Source of the DNA: a virus
Reading direction: 5' to 3' (one strand)
IMG/VR virus record: IMGVR_UViG_3300030098_000055
Coordinates: 1-22,956 of that record
DNA length: 22,956 nucleotides
Under the pieces are notes generated by a model that ran no database searches, was not told the DNA's origin, and saw only the letters and a list, made by a program, of their open reading frames with translations. A program made the translations under genes and the position numbers. Every line of letters begins with the position of its first letter. The first letter of the stretch is position 1. Below, piece by piece: positions 3,613-18,262 of the stretch.

Positions 3613-4527
3613 TTAAAATTTAATTACATACATAAGAGCTACGTTCTTAGGTCTATTTTCTGTGCCACCATCATTTGATAAAGAAATACCTGTATTTGCG
3701 TTACTCATAGAAAAATCTTGACCTGGATAACTACCCGCACCACCAAAACCTACTTGTTGTGTACCTCCTACAAGGAAAACTCTTTTATTAAGTAAGCTTG
3801 TAGCATGATTATGACCTGGATCTGTTACAGAGTGAGCATGACTTTTGTTTTGATCTGTTTGACTTGACGCAAAACTTCTACCGCTATCTACACCTCTTCC
3901 ATTATCAAAACCTCTCACAAATTGACCTCTTAAATCAGGAAGATTAAAAGTAGAACTTCCGTCACCTGATCCATGAGTTGTTCCTATTGCAGAGAATAAA
4001 CTTGCGTATGTTGATCTACTAACGGTTGCTCCATTACATTCCAAATAACCTGATGGAACAGTTGTTGATGCAAATGTTAATACAGAGCCTGGTGGTACAC
4101 CATTTGCTATTTCACCCCATGCAGAACCGTTATATCCTTCAAATTGTGTAATACTTGTATTAAATCTGATATCACCTGTTGCAGGAGTTGGCCTTTGTGC
4201 TGTTGTTCCAGTGGGAAGTTGTAATGAACCATTTCCAGACATTACTATATCGCCTGCTGAAGTTATAGTTCCTGTAAAGCTTGGAGATGCGGTAGTTGCA
4301 TGTCCCATTTCAGCAGTATCAACTTTTCCTAAATTTATAAAATTCGTACCATCATAAATATTTAATGTATTGTTATTACTATTTACCCATAATTTTCCTG
4401 TGACTTTCGTAGTTGGCTCACTTGATCCTCTGTTTGTTGATTGAACATCTCCAAGGCAAACATTTAAGTCTGCCCTAAAGGTTGCTCCTACTGCATTAGC
4501 AATATCATAATCACTACCATTACTCAT
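3613..4527 (-). CDS. Tail fibre with phage tail collar domain (304 aa)
   Basis: The C-terminal half, from about residue 144, is a phage tail collar domain: PPGSVLTFAS, PSGYLECNGATVSRSTYASLF, the STFNLPDLRGQFVRG core, and the family-typical ending ENRPKNVALMYVIKF. Two HxH pairs (H230/H232 and H239/H241) lie just after the core; in T4-type long fibres such pairs bind iron, so metal binding is possible here. Residues 92-140 repeat the AQRP/FEGYNGS module of the 680-aa fibre, and residues 42-70 (GKLWVNSNNNTLNIYDGTNF) are a common fibre repeat. It directly follows the gpJ-like gene, sharing one base, and has a perfect Shine-Dalgarno sequence. Likely a side or tip fibre for adsorption. Confidence 0.88.
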   Translation of the reverse strand: MSNGSDYDIANAVGATFRADLNVCLGDVQSTNRGSSEPTTKVTGKLWVNSNNNTLNIYDGTNFINLGKVDTAEMGHATTASPSFTGTITSAGDIVMSGNGSLQLPTGTTAQRPTPATGDIRFNTSITQFEGYNGSAWGEIANGVPPGSVLTFASTTVPSGYLECNGATVSRSTYASLFSAIGTTHGSGDGSSTFNLPDLRGQFVRGFDNGRGVDSGRSFASSQTDQNKSHAHSVTDPGHNHATSLLNKRVFLVGGTQQVGFGGAGSYPGQDFSMSNANTGISLSNDGGTENRPKNVALMYVIKF

Positions 4528-7500
4528 TATGTGACCTCCTTACCAAAACCTGATGCAGCCCATACAAAAGATCTTGCAACTGCTGATGAAGCATTTTTAA
4601 AAGTGACTTGAAAACCTGTCCTACTTATATTAGCAAGTTCAAAAAAGTCTCCTGTTTGTTGATTTGTTGGAGTCACAACAACTGTAGGTGTTTGTTTGAA
4701 AGGATTAGTAAAAGATACAGTGTATTGTTGAGATCCAGTGGTTACTGGAGTAGAAATACTTTCTGTTCTTCCTTGTAATTCTAGTTTAGCTCCTAACTCT
4801 GTAACAGCTATGTTTTGGTTTGTGTCACCACTTGTTAATATTGCCTTAAATTGAAAAGCTCTTCCAGTTATAAGAACATTACTAAATTCTTTGTATTCAC
4901 TCCATGTTGGAGAACCCGATGGATTATCACTTGTTGATCTTACATATAAAGCAGCATTACAAGCAGTAGCTTCTGTTAAACCTCCAACTGCATCAATATA
5001 CCCCCAACTATCAATTAGATCTGTTCTTGAATCCCATAAACTATTAAGAATAAAATTACTTGCTTTCAAGACTTTTCGTAAATTTACATCATAAGGTTGT
5101 GTTAGATCTATAGAATTTGCAAATAAATATTCACCAGAATTAGCAGTTGCACTATTTGTTTCGACTAATTTTAAAGCATCAATAGATGCGTCATAAATTG
5201 TATTTGTTTTAGAACCTGTAAAATTAGCTGTATGTTCATCTACCGTACCAACAACAAGTCTTTCAGAAGGTGCAGGTAGATTTGTTGTAACTCTAGTATT
5301 ATTCCAATCAGAATCACTTGATCCAGGTGCAGGAGATTGTCTACCGCCATCGTCTTCAAACTTAATTAAATAAGTCCCTTCTAATAATGGTACGATTTTT
5401 TGTGTTTGGTTTCCAGCCGCAGCAACTACAATTTCTTGTGCATCTTTCCACTGAGCTAATGAAGTTAAAGAAGAATGTCTTATTAAAGTTTTACCTCCTA
5501 ATAAAACATCAAGTTCTGTGGCACGATTCCAACTTAATATTGCACTTGATTCATCAATAGGCAATAAGCTAACTCCACTTACATTTGTAGGTAATGCAGT
5601 TTTACCTACAGCAACAAAAAAAGGATCTGCAGGTTTTGTTGGTAATACAGATCTTAATCCAGAAGAACTCACGCTATAAACTTCAATTTCATAATTGCCC
5701 TCAATAGTATCTAAAATTTCAAAACTCTTAGATCCTTCTACAGTACGAGAAGTATAATTTCCATCTTGTAATCTAAATCTTATATATGCACTATCAGTAT
5801 TAGTTGTCCATGTAACTATTATTTTTGTTCTTGCAATACCAGTGTCTTCATAAATGACCTCCTCTGCTGTAACTGTTGATGGAGACGAGGGTGCAACATT
5901 TAAGTTTGTAATATCTCTTTGAGGAAGTGTAATACCACTTTCTACATGATTATATTTACCCGCATTGTATTCACTAGCTGATATTGAATAAAAAGCTCTA
6001 TCCTTTTCTTCAACTGTTAAAACTCTCCACGTTGAGCTTTGTATATCATTAGATTCATAGACCCAAATTGAATTGACATTTGGAATAGTTGAAAAGCTCT
6101 GTCCAAGACTAATAAGTTTACCACTTATACCTGATATGCTCTTTGATTCAACACTTCCATCAGCCATAACAACGGATAATGTTGCTCCCGCTTTAAAAAC
6201 TAAATCCGTATCATCATCAGCAGTAACGGTATTGATTGTTGCTGCTGATATTCTTCCACTTCTTCTCTCGCCCGCAACCATTGGATCTGATATTTCAATA
6301 ACTTGACCAGGCCTTACGACAACACCCGCATCAATGGCACAACTAAAATTAACTACACTTCTTTCTACATTTGACATATAGAGCATCCACTTTGCTAGTC
6401 GAGAAGCCTGACCTCTGCTAGTTGTAGCAAAACTATCAATATTTTTAATAACTGTTCCGTACCTTGCTTGGTTTGCGGTATCAATTTGTTCAACGTAATT
6501 AATATCACGCAATTCCATATCTAAATATTTTGCAATTACAACTGTTGGTCTTTGTTTTTGACTTACATTAGAATAACTAAAACCAGGCTCTAGTACGTTT
6601 GCTAATGAAAATAAATATGTCGTATCTTTTGGTGAATCTTGTGTTATAGATAATGATCCCGCACTCCATAAAGGCATAGCTCTGAAAACAGAACACATCT
6701 GATTAATTACGTTATATGCTTCTTGTTGATTTTGAAGAGAGACATTACAACTGAATCTTGGTTCTGTTGTTCCATTACCAGTTCCATCATCAACTTGTTC
6801 ATTACAATAAACTGATGCTGCATAAAAACTAAATTTATCTAAATCCGCTTCAGATAAATGATCTCCTAGCCCATACCTAGAGCTAGTAAGTAAATCATAT
6901 AAGCACCAAGCAGGATCGCTTGTCCACTGTGCTGCACCTAATGTTCCATTGAATACTCCAGAATAAGACAAACTACCATCTGCGTTTACAGTTGCATTAT
7001 GTGGAATCTTTACTTTTATACCTTTTATTAAATATTTTCTTGATGGAATTGAGTTAAATTGTTCTGCATCTACTTTTAATCCAACAAGTGCTGTATTTGG
7101 ATATGTAAGTTTATCGTATTTTATTTCAACATAATTTAAAAATTGAAAAGCGTTTGTTAATTTACTTGAACTGCTATCTGCTGTTATTCTTGTTACCTTT
7201 ATATTTACAGGAAAACTACCGCTTAAATTAATTAAATAATCTCTTATATAAGTATCAGGAGTTCTTCCTGTTATTTTGCCTTTATTGCCAGAGACTACTG
7301 TTTGATATGAACCTCCTTGATATTGAACTGCAATTTCTAACTGTATTTCAGTTCCGAAAATATCACCTTTGTCACTAAATCTTTGTAGCGTGGGAACAGT
7401 TATTTGTATAGAGACAGCATCAACATCTGAATCTGTTATCTGTATAATTTTAGGTGTTGCTTGCGGAACTGTTGAAAAACCAGTTAGTTTTGTCGTTGCT

Positions 7501-15514: not shown

Positions 15515-18262
15515 TTATGTTCCGAAGCAGAACGCAGTTGGTTGCTTAATCGCAAAGTCAACATCTTGCAACGCAACAATCTTAACTGTACCGCTACCCG
15601 CTTTTGTGATTGTATCTACTGTTAGATCTAAACCACTCCACATACCAATACAGAACTGGCTGAAGTCTCCAAACAAGGCATCGTTATTAACAAGTTGATT
15701 TGAAACAATAACTGGATAGCCATTAATTTCATTGTTCTCAAAAACGAACTTACCTGTATTTGATGCAACTTCAGTACTCTTTAACGCACCTCTAGCAGAA
15801 GCATTAATGATGTAGAACATATTTGCGACATCAGCGTTTGCTGCGGCTACATCTGTTTCCATTCCGATGTACTCAGCGAATGTACCGAATGTAGTAATGG
15901 TTTGTGTTCCAACACCAGTTGTATCTTTAATACCTAATGGTTGGTTTGAAGAACCTGTACCATAAATAGCTGCGTTATCTAACTTAGTAGCAATAACTCT
16001 CGCAATATCATCTCTAATCATTGACTCAACATCAATGCTTGACTGTAATAGAAGTCTTCTTGTGAACTCAACAACTCCACCAACTGTCTTAGGTGTCATG
16101 TTGACCTGATCGAAGGCTTGCTGTGATTCTGTAGGCTCAGATCCTTCTCCCACGAAAAACCCTGTCGCTGTCTGAGTCATTCTTGGAATCGCAATGTTAC
16201 CAGAAAGTCCTGTAAGCATTGTAGGATTCGTTGCCATAACAGCCATTCTTTTACGAAGAATATCTATAAAAGAACCAGAAAGTAATTCTGTAGGAACTAA
16301 GTTACCACCCGCAGTTGCAGTACCAACATTCAAGTCTCTTTGTAAAACTTCGTTAGGAACTAAGATGCCATTTGCTGGTTTTTCATAACGCTTAGATGCT
16401 TCGTCTGAAACTTCTCTTTCAAATGCAGCAGCTTCTTGTGCTGATCTGTCATTAGGATTTGCTAGTGCATTTAAAGCTCTTAAGAAAGAAAACTTCTTAA
16501 CTTCTTTTGGTTCTAAACCAACTTCATTAGTTGTCATGTCTGTTGAACGAATAGGGGTATTATTGACCTCTGCCTTGTTTTTAACAAGATCGAGGATGGC
16601 TGCTCTTGCTTCAACAACAGATTTGTTGCCTTTAATAAGAGTTTCAGCTATGTCTTCTGCTCCATACTCTCCAAACTCACGACATAAAGAAGTGATAGAT
16701 GCTGTACGAGCGTTGTTTTCATCAATAGCACGTTGAACTTCGGCTTTGATGTCGATTTCAACGGATTTCTCCGCTTCAACCTGAGTTTCTTTAATAGGTT
16801 CTTCCATAGTGCGAACAGAGGGTGATGCGGAATCATCCGCAGAATTAAGTTCCATAGTAGGTGACTTATCTTCCATAGTAATACTATTACCTTGAGAGGG
16901 TGTAATTAAACTTCTTCCGAAGCCGATTGTAGGATCTGCTGGAACAGTTACAACCGATAATTCGTGTACTGACCATGACCTTGCGAGCATACCTTCTTCA
17001 GTCTCATCAATATCATTTATAGAATATCCAAAGCTAATACCTCGAATAATTCCATCTTTGACATCTTCTAAGATTTCAGATGCAAACTTACTTCTTGAGA
17101 AACGAATCTTTGCGTAACCTCTTTTGTCTTCACCAATATATGCAGATTCAACTACACCTATTGGTTTATCCATATTGTGATTAAACAAAACTGCACCGCC
17201 ATCATTCAGTCTTGAAAGATCAGCAGCCCCACGTTCATGGCTTAATATTTCGTTACCAAAATATCTTTTTACTGGATATTCAGAACTAAAAGGAAACTCA
17301 AATGTTCTTGATTTCACATTTTTGAAATCAGTTACTTCTTTTCTTTCCAATTTGTCATCAGATTCTATTGTTCTGATAGCTGCGATCTTAGTCAAAGTAG
17401 AAAACTTATGACCGACCTTACGATCTGTAGCCTCACCATTTCTATAAAGAGTAATGAGTGCAGCAGGATCGTCTGCTGTTCCTGTAATAGTAAAGGAACT
17501 ATCTGGTACATCTATTGATCCATCTCTTACGATGCGATCAATTTTTCCTCTAGCTGTACCACCACTAGAGTTCCACCTGACAAAATCACCGACCTTCAAA
17601 CCATCAGGCTCGGCTCTTTTCTCAACTGTTGTTGATTCAGTCATAGATTTTTCGTTAGTAGCGGGTTCAAACTTGATGGGATCAAATTCGTTTCTATCAA
17701 GCCAAGATTTAGCTTGGGAGACAGAATATTCAGACAGTCTGAATCTTATTGATTGAAGTTCAGCACCCTCTTCATTATTCTTTATACCAAAAATAAAGTC
17801 TACCCCTTGTGAACCCTCATTGTTTGACCGCCTAAATGTATCATATTGTTCTGGATTTGTAATAGTAGCTGCGTGTTCATTTGGATATGGCCTTGATAAT
17901 TCTATAGGTTCTGCTCTTTCTCTGGCTTTTTTTATAGCAGCAGCTTTACCTCTACTCCAACTAAAACCTGCATCACCTCCCCAGGCAGCCCAAGCAACCC
18001 TGCCTTTTGACGGATAACCCTTTTCACCAGGACTAAAACCTTCTGCTTTTTTGTCAACCTCATGCCTGCTGAAAAAACTAAACATACGCAAGGTCACATC
18101 TGGGGAAAGCTCTGAGCCACTTAATATCTGAGTTGCTCTTACTGCTGCTACTTGCGTACCACCTGCTCTACCTTCTTTTTTCCAATCTTTATATCTTTGT
18201 GCTTCCGTCTTCATCCCATCTGTAGGTTTGAGATTAATCTCAGTTCCGCTTACATTTGCCAT
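15515..18262 (-). CDS. Prohead protease - major capsid protein fusion (915 aa)
   Basis: One uninterrupted frame with several modules. Residues 20-115: RAGGTQVAAVRATQI, HEVDKKAEGFSPGEKGYPS and AWAAWGGDAGFSW, a segment I have seen before prohead proteases. About 153-200: a short alpha/beta piece (SIRFRLSEYSVSQAKSWLDR). About 220-293: a tudor-like DUF2945 domain (LKVGDFVRWNSSGGTARGKI). About 305-450: HK97-type prohead protease (family S78) with candidate catalytic H362, S410 (RGISFGYS) and E434. About 485-635: charged helical, delta/scaffold-like region. About 640-915: HK97-fold capsid protein (NVGTATAGGNLVPTEL, GFFVGEGSEP, AAIYGTGSSNQPLG). The protease would mature the shell from within. No internal ATG with a good ribosome binding site separates the two parts, and no separate capsid gene exists here. 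Confidence 0.92.
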   Translation of the reverse strand: MANVSGTEINLKPTDGMKTEAQRYKDWKKEGRAGGTQVAAVRATQILSGSELSPDVTLRMFSFFSRHEVDKKAEGFSPGEKGYPSKGRVAWAAWGGDAGFSWSRGKAAAIKKARERAEPIELSRPYPNEHAATITNPEQYDTFRRSNNEGSQGVDFIFGIKNNEEGAELQSIRFRLSEYSVSQAKSWLDRNEFDPIKFEPATNEKSMTESTTVEKRAEPDGLKVGDFVRWNSSGGTARGKIDRIVRDGSIDVPDSSFTITGTADDPAALITLYRNGEATDRKVGHKFSTLTKIAAIRTIESDDKLERKEVTDFKNVKSRTFEFPFSSEYPVKRYFGNEILSHERGAADLSRLNDGGAVLFNHNMDKPIGVVESAYIGEDKRGYAKIRFSRSKFASEILEDVKDGIIRGISFGYSINDIDETEEGMLARSWSVHELSVVTVPADPTIGFGRSLITPSQGNSITMEDKSPTMELNSADDSASPSVRTMEEPIKETQVEAEKSVEIDIKAEVQRAIDENNARTASITSLCREFGEYGAEDIAETLIKGNKSVVEARAAILDLVKNKAEVNNTPIRSTDMTTNEVGLEPKEVKKFSFLRALNALANPNDRSAQEAAAFEREVSDEASKRYEKPANGILVPNEVLQRDLNVGTATAGGNLVPTELLSGSFIDILRKRMAVMATNPTMLTGLSGNIAIPRMTQTATGFFVGEGSEPTESQQAFDQVNMTPKTVGGVVEFTRRLLLQSSIDVESMIRDDIARVIATKLDNAAIYGTGSSNQPLGIKDTTGVGTQTITTFGTFAEYIGMETDVAAANADVANMFYIINASARGALKSTEVASNTGKFVFENNEINGYPVIVSNQLVNNDALFGDFSQFCIGMWSGLDLTVDTITKAGSGTVKIVALQDVDFAIKQPTAFCFGT

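Follow-up and report, generated by a model that had tools for sequence, protein, structure and literature searches.

In bacteriophage lambda, the protease gene C contains an in-frame internal start that yields the scaffold Nu3, and one locus thereby gives two products of head assembly. An initiator complex made of C, Nu3, and the portal has been described for this phage (PMC3224144). In HK97, the mature capsid protein is preceded by a covalently linked scaffold domain, which later shells no longer contain (PMC10275583), and a paper on Rhodobacter phages mentions one cluster whose capsid and protease are fused (PMC8601537).

Here, we analyzed a related locus on an IMG/VR contig from a marine phage (22,956 bases; hereafter, the window, meaning the whole stretch of DNA). 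The gene order is lambda-like, with a gpA-type terminase, a lambda-family portal, the polyprotein gene, head-tail connectors, and tail genes. The polyprotein gene is an ORF on the minus strand (15515–18262) that encodes 915 aa without an internal stop, in the order ND1, ND2, Tudor-like domain, S78 protease, coiled-coil scaffold, and HK97-fold capsid. The features of this gene, in window coordinates, are as follows:

15515..18262, minus strand: gene for the protease-scaffold-capsid polyprotein with N-terminal modules (915 codons; ORF translation)
17912..18226, minus strand: ND1 module, residues 13–117 (all-helical domain of ~105 aa with conserved RH(E) and WGGDxG)
17654..17911, minus strand: ND2 module, residues 118–203, with a PNEHAA... 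motif (separate ordered domain in the model)
17381..17608, minus strand: Tudor/SH3-like barrel, residues 219–294 (Pfam Hva1_TUDOR; fold match)
16916..17320, minus strand: putative S78 prohead protease, residues 315–449, with H362/S410/E434 (Pfam; 50-sequence alignment)
16643..16915, minus strand: strongly suppressed synonymous change, codons 450–540 (spanning the linker, the internal start, and the beginning of the scaffold)
16826..16841, minus strand: RNA hairpin 1, UGCGGA-UGAU-UCCGCA (covariation, synonymous shuffles, RNAalifold)
16805..16807, minus strand: candidate internal start codon, Met486 (conserved start codon; predicted 430-aa scaffold and capsid product)
16760..16775, minus strand: RNA hairpin 2, about 30 nt downstream of the internal start (RNAalifold)
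16523..16807, minus strand: helical scaffold domain, residues 486–580 (helices 505–568 in the model; PHROG and NCBIfam fusion models)
15518..16510, minus strand: HK97-fold capsid part, residues 585–915 (Pfam; fold match; R4C virion chain 8gta_A)

Like the lambda C/Nu3 locus, the window has a protease gene with a candidate nested in-frame start, along with a lambda-type portal (PF05136) and a gpA-type terminase nearby. In lambda, however, capsid protein E is encoded by a separate gene, whereas the nested product of the window would be a scaffold-capsid protein, and three extra modules stand ahead of the window's protease. The resemblance to HK97 gp4/gp5 lies in the S78 protease and in a scaffold placed covalently before an HK97-fold capsid; gp4 and gp5 are separate genes in HK97 and a single gene in the window, where the proposed 430-aa product would be the equivalent of HK97 gp5. 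Fusions of VP882, phiHAP-1, PPpW-3, ECO1230-10, RcCronus, R4C, and S-LBS1 share the S78-scaffold-capsid order and an internal ATG with the window (33–46% identity), but they are devoid of ND1, ND2, and Tudor, and most carry a Shine-Dalgarno (SD) sequence instead of a hairpin. As in the window, N-terminal modules precede the fusion in S-CBS1 and S-CBS3 (Synechococcus) and in CRP-811 and CRP-821 (Roseobacter), although their module sets differ from that of the window (ND1+ND2; ND1+Tudor; ND1+insert+ND2).

The polyprotein gene and its fusion class

An earlier note, made from the letters of this DNA, had described one continuous frame of 915 residues, and this frame was found intact on the minus strand at the coordinates given above. 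Open frames of equal length (915–916 aa, start to stop) were present in >30 independent IMG/VR contigs, and the isolates S-CBS1, CRP-811, and CRP-821 have comparable fusions, each annotated as one gene. An assembly or frame error that would split the ORF once corrected, which the earlier note had considered, was excluded as the cause of the fusion because the identical frame recurs across many independent contigs. Structure prediction of the full chain, also suggested at that time, gave discrete ordered modules joined by linkers: in an AlphaFold2 model built with 50 sequences, low-confidence linkers were located at residues 116–124, 204–217, 297–314, and 450–504, and helices were found at residues 505–568, between the protease and the capsid.

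Roseobacter phage CRP-823 (L100; 3483–4199 and 4159–6411) has the fusion annotated as a pair of genes that overlap, with the break within ND2; this may reflect either an error in sequencing or a true split, and its close relative CRP-821 keeps a single frame. In a contig binned as Akkermansiaceae (L190), a separate 218-aa ND1-Tudor ORF (3968–4621) lies immediately upstream of an S78-scaffold-capsid ORF (4835–6202), an arrangement that is a split version of the window's polyprotein gene.

Profile searches bore out the domain assignments of the earlier note, with the S78, Hva1_TUDOR, and Phage_capsid models all scoring above their Pfam cut-offs. Peptidase_S78 matched residues 356–444 (43.8 bits; cut-off 21), and the active-site residues H362, S410, and E434, whose numbering in the earlier note was exact, were invariant in an alignment of 50 diverse relatives. 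The Pfam score together with these His-Ser-acidic residues places the domain in the S78 family as a putative protease. Phage_capsid (PF05065) matched residues 652–914 (143.3 bits; cut-off 24.2), and a Foldseek search with the capsid part returned 8gta as the best match (E = 5e-21), followed by D3, GTA, and HK97. Based on both sequence and fold, this part is an HK97-fold major capsid protein.

The window protein also matched PHROG 617, a family of protease-capsid fusions, with E = 1e-157 over residues 315–914 (profile positions 22–621 of 626), and it belongs to this family. In contrast, the NCBIfam model NF045541 (prohead protease/major capsid protein fusion protein) gave 152.8 bits over residues 315–580 only, below its curated cut-off of 525 bits, and the window protein is thus related to, and outside of, the curated family. 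Using tblastn, 216 phage records matched at E ≤ 1e-5, and >50 of the best rows covered the protease and the capsid together in one place; the protease, scaffold, and capsid were matched as one gene in VP882, phiHAP-1, PPpW-3, ECO1230-10, RcCronus, R4C, and S-LBS1. The protease-capsid fusion is a known, named, and widespread class and by itself ordinary, and the former description of such fusions as uncommon does not agree with the 216 matching records or with the existence of PHROG 617 and NF045541.

A candidate internal start at the protease-scaffold boundary

Around the internal start, the linker is highly variable in length and sequence across the fusions. Nevertheless, an in-frame start codon was found before the scaffold helix in all 50 diverse metagenomic fusions compared (47 ATG, 3 GTG), and each of the three GTG exceptions has GGAG 9–10 nt upstream. 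The internal ATG was also present in 16 of 16 isolates examined, and it was conserved at Met486 in 62 of 62 close relatives, whereas ATG density elsewhere in the linker was 1.6% per codon. Assuming independence, which does not apply to these sequences, 47 of 50 fusions would carry an ATG within 25 codons with a probability of 6e-20. Other methionines were rejected as the internal start: in the close clade, conservation was 74% for M463 and 8% for M470 (compared to 100% for M486), and M576 was 100% conserved in this clade, but CRP-811 has no Met at that junction. A search for a second internal start ahead of the protease revealed no conserved Met there. In split-gene relatives such as L192, L193, L196, and L197, the capsid gene has its own start, followed by a helical-looking region and then the capsid domain.

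SD-like pairing (duplex ≤−4 kcal/mol) was found at 34 of 66 internal starts, compared to 16% of other in-frame ATGs. Proteobacterial phages usually have an SD before the internal start, with duplex energies (kcal/mol) of −9.5 in R4C, −9.1 in CRP-811, −8.2 in CRP-821, −7.1 in VP882, and −6.0 in ECO1230-10; the internal SD sequences are cggaggacgcaATG in R4C, aaggagaacactATG in CRP-811, cagaggtgcagaaATG in VP882, and tgaggattcacgaATG in ECO1230-10. At Met486 of the window, no SD was found (duplex +1.5 kcal/mol), and an SD is present at 10 of the 23 gene starts within the window. Some cyano-like relatives have a strong SD at the gene start and none at the internal start. With regard to a lambda C/Nu3-like nested gene, the window therefore has the conserved in-frame start codon expected where the scaffold begins, but the predicted ribosome-binding site at this codon is a property of its proteobacterial relatives. 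Judging from these sequence comparisons, internal initiation at Met486 is likely. A survey of an open literature library returned no report of an internal start or of two products in fusion phages, and no proteomic or ribosome-profiling data on any member.

The scaffold domain and the conserved internal start between protease and capsid had been overlooked in the earlier note, which had offered self-cleavage or an internal start as ways to obtain capsid protein. The second of these is strongly favored, in the form of a start at Met486, which would not replace processing. The accompanying claim, that all shell subunits come joined to a protease, probably does not hold.

Processing was considered using R4C, a 629-aa member of the class with an internal start at residue 189 and a strong internal SD. 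The capsid chain of the R4C virion (8gta_A) was modelled as residues 362–629, aligned to residues 652–915 of the window protein, the chain start being the first modelled residue and not a sequenced N-terminus. The mature capsid chain of the window thus probably starts at about residue 652 (position 16309 downward), and the R4C chain start fits a removal of the scaffold after assembly, as in the HK97 pattern. The available portions of the R4C paper describe a T=7 shell of 415 copies and do not discuss cleavage (PMC10276861).

Synonymous constraint, RNA hairpins, and the nested-gene explanation

Synonymous change was analyzed in 38 sequences of the window's clade, using an expectation fitted per sequence pair and per amino acid. 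The observed/expected ratio (O/E) was 0.44 in codons 450–485 and 0.37 in codons 486–540 (0 of 4000 permutations), compared to 0.87–1.24 in all other gene parts. Amino acids vary more in the linker, where identity reaches its minimum for this gene, than in any other part, and the constraint therefore acts on nucleotides. Among 24 more distant cyano-like relatives, in which synonymous differences occur at about half of the sites, the lowest synonymous window was again located at the internal start (O/E 0.65). The constraint extends to codon ~536, past both hairpins (16643–16750, codons 505–540), and codons 505–540 are likely to hold additional RNA structure or a different signal. A 62-aa ORF in the +1 frame of the minus strand (16648–16836) coincides with the constrained stretch.

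Hairpin 1 has a stem of 5–6 bp and ends 18 nt upstream of Met486, and the stems of distant relatives at the matching place are UGCGGA/UCCGCA, GCUGC/GCAGC, ACGGC/GCCGU, and UACGGC/GUCGUA. We found 18 double changes in this stem versus 3.9 in shuffles (0 of 500), with slid controls failing, in a set of sequences picked for having the hairpin, which left out L113, L153, and L183, where this position lacks the hairpin, as well as L071 and L075, whose loop is longer. Compared to synonymous shuffles, the hairpin was stronger than expected in the cyano-like group without SD (Fisher P = 6.5e-9), and the SD group showed no such excess (P = 0.89); this test and the others described here used related sequences that are not phylogenetically independent. 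The leader from the hairpin to the start codon is 18–30 nt long and G-poor. Hairpin 2 shows a change from A-U to C-G in 12 of 30 sequences, and RNAalifold on 30 unselected close relatives recovered both hairpins. No Rfam 15 family matched positions 16500–17050 at E ≤ 1. These patterns suggest that, in the cyanophage-like clade of the window, a conserved hairpin stands in place of the SD.

From these results, we infer that one gene gives rise to a nested set of head-assembly proteins, and we assign a probability of roughly 0.7 to this explanation as a whole. Initiation at the first codon would produce a small amount of the 915-aa ND1-ND2-Tudor-S78 protease-scaffold-capsid chain, and initiation at Met486 would produce a large amount of a 430-aa scaffold-capsid precursor, the bulk shell subunit. 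Long and short chains would co-assemble via their common scaffold and capsid parts, with the minority of long chains carrying the protease and the front modules into the prohead. After assembly, the protease would cut away the front modules, the scaffold, and its own domain, so that a capsid protein of ~264–270 aa remains; the front modules inside the prohead would be degraded or kept as cargo. The internal start would be marked by an SD in proteobacterial phages and by an upstream hairpin in the cyanophage-like clade, with the second hairpin just downstream of the start in close relatives. A more detailed proposal holds that the flanking hairpins are a cis-acting RNA element that drives SD-independent initiation (or makes its message) and sets the ratio of protease-bearing to plain subunits in cyanophage-like viruses, and that ND1/ND2/Tudor form a cargo slot loaded from genes that bacteria carry as an ND1-Tudor pair. 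This extended version is tentative, and its odds are well short of even.

Alternatively, the hairpins and the constraint may serve mainly in mRNA processing or stability, or mark an internal transcript start, with initiation as a consequence and not a result of recruitment by the hairpin. The succession of a hairpin and a G-poor leader of 18–30 nt before the start codon would suit such a role, as would the lack of an Rfam match and the reach of the constraint well past the hairpins; however, the pairing changes at a kept position suggest a role of the RNA without telling which, and we regard this explanation as unlikely. A second alternative is that only the full-length polyprotein is made, so that each subunit would bring a protease and front modules into the prohead, and cleaves itself in the linker and before the capsid, the RNA element slowing the ribosome for protease folding before scaffold synthesis. 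This agrees with the continuous frame, with the predicted disorder of the linker (450–504), where a self-cleavage site could lie, and with the missing SD at Met486 in the window. Nevertheless, a pausing or cleavage signal explains neither why the only exceptions to ATG are three GTG codons nor why good SDs in relatives sit at precisely this codon. The interior of each shell would also be heavily loaded, with several hundred copies of the protease plus some 450 additional residues (the T=7 shell of R4C has 415 copies), and we regard this scheme as quite unlikely.

Recoding was also considered because a stem-loop is a typical stimulator of frameshifting: a frame shift induced by the hairpin, followed by a stop in the linker, would release free protease, and frame +2 stops do lie near the hairpin in the window (codons 472 and 476). 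This is very improbable, given that the aligned linkers, inspected by eye, showed no conserved slippery sequence, that the alternative-frame stops are not conserved in position, and that the conserved start codon is left unexplained. Finally, we give almost no weight to an overlapping gene in the +1 frame as the cause of the constraint, because the 62-aa ORF, which in the window covers a large portion of the constrained codons and is open in close relatives, has a start and stop that are not conserved among the 38 close relatives, and many other relatives have this frame closed, with third positions still the most variable.

The front modules in phages and bacteria

The tudor-like module reported in front of the protease was recovered, but the N-terminal half of the protein consists of three modules and not of one Tudor domain. 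In ND1, the RH and WGG residues are invariant among relatives. No model in Pfam or NCBIfam covers ND1, which is matched by PHROG 2859 (function unassigned in PHROG); searches against the PDB gave no match for the ND1 sequence at E ≤ 1 and none for the N-terminal model at E ≤ 0.001. ND2 is missing in part of the relatives. Hva1_TUDOR (PF11160, which we take to be the former DUF2945) matched residues 225–273 (28.6 bits; cut-off 24.1), and in a second PDB search, which mainly covered the Tudor barrel, the model matched PHF1, PHF19, and NusG-type (KOW) barrels at Z 6–7. Both the gathering score and the barrel fold place this module in Hva1_TUDOR. Models of defence proteins gave no match.

The front modules had been singled out as the more unusual aspect of this gene, which is true of the literature but not of marine viromes, where an ND1 pattern scan of IMG/VR returned at least 600 rows. 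Among ND1-bearing proteins in which the protease, scaffold, and capsid were also detected, the module orders were ND1-Tudor (22), ND1 alone (13), ND1-ND2-Tudor (10), ND1-ND2 (9), and ND1-Tudor-ND2 (3), the last of which also occurs in L183. Close IMG/VR relatives of the window have either all three front modules or ND1 and Tudor. Across phages, the front modules occur in shuffled combinations. In CRP-821 (L084), residues ~115–215 form an extra module (VFRRGVGAYYTNPESVRP ... FLYALRNGK) inserted between ND1 and ND2, which, by eye, may be distantly related to ND1.

ND1 was also identified in other viral proteins. It lies inside the portal of archaeal virus HATV-3 (L093, residues 479–570) and in the portal/Mu-gpF-like protein of archaeal tailed virus HRTV-4 (L096, gene 30, residues 466–554), in both cases far from any protease-capsid fusion. 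It likewise forms part of the ‘capsid maturation protease’ of DSL-LC01 and of the phiPsal1 prohead protease, occurs in Vibrio phages in genes that adjoin those for the portal and the capsid, and is a stand-alone gene in PaBG and S-CBS4.

In bacterial chromosomes, ND1 is a stand-alone gene of ~110 aa, mostly from Rhizobiales among the loci listed. For 56 cellular ND1 loci (L203–L258), the surrounding ±4 kb was examined, and 25 of them had a Tudor (DUF2945-like) ORF in this range, with some of the Tudor matches being weak (E up to 6e-3). All 25 Tudor-like ORFs are directly adjacent to ND1 on the same strand (e.g., L206, 3732–3968 and 3965–4306; ORF starts were set mechanically). Apart from the Tudor gene, no recurrent family was detected among the neighbors of ND1 in the 56 loci. 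The window has the barrel domain in common with bacterial Hva1_TUDOR/DUF2945 genes but, unlike in the window, ND1 and Tudor are separate small genes in bacteria and lie outside of a capsid gene. Because the link to Tudor occurs both in bacteria and in phage polyproteins, this pairing suggests that ND1 and Tudor work together. In our view, it is somewhat unlikely that the front modules act as functional cargo and not as parts used in assembly.

Two aspects of this locus look new: the conserved nested start with alternative signals (SD or hairpin), and the shuffled ND1/Tudor modules common to phages and bacterial genes. An internal start with two interchangeable signals would be a simple answer to how many shell subunits and few proteases are obtained from one gene, and this answer would apply to a widespread class of phage heads. 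Under the internal-start model, a second product goes unnoticed when such genes are annotated as one ‘major capsid protein’. Given its presence in portals, proteases, and archaeal viruses, and beside bacterial DUF2945-like genes, ND1 appears to be an unnoticed module that has repeatedly been placed in head proteins.
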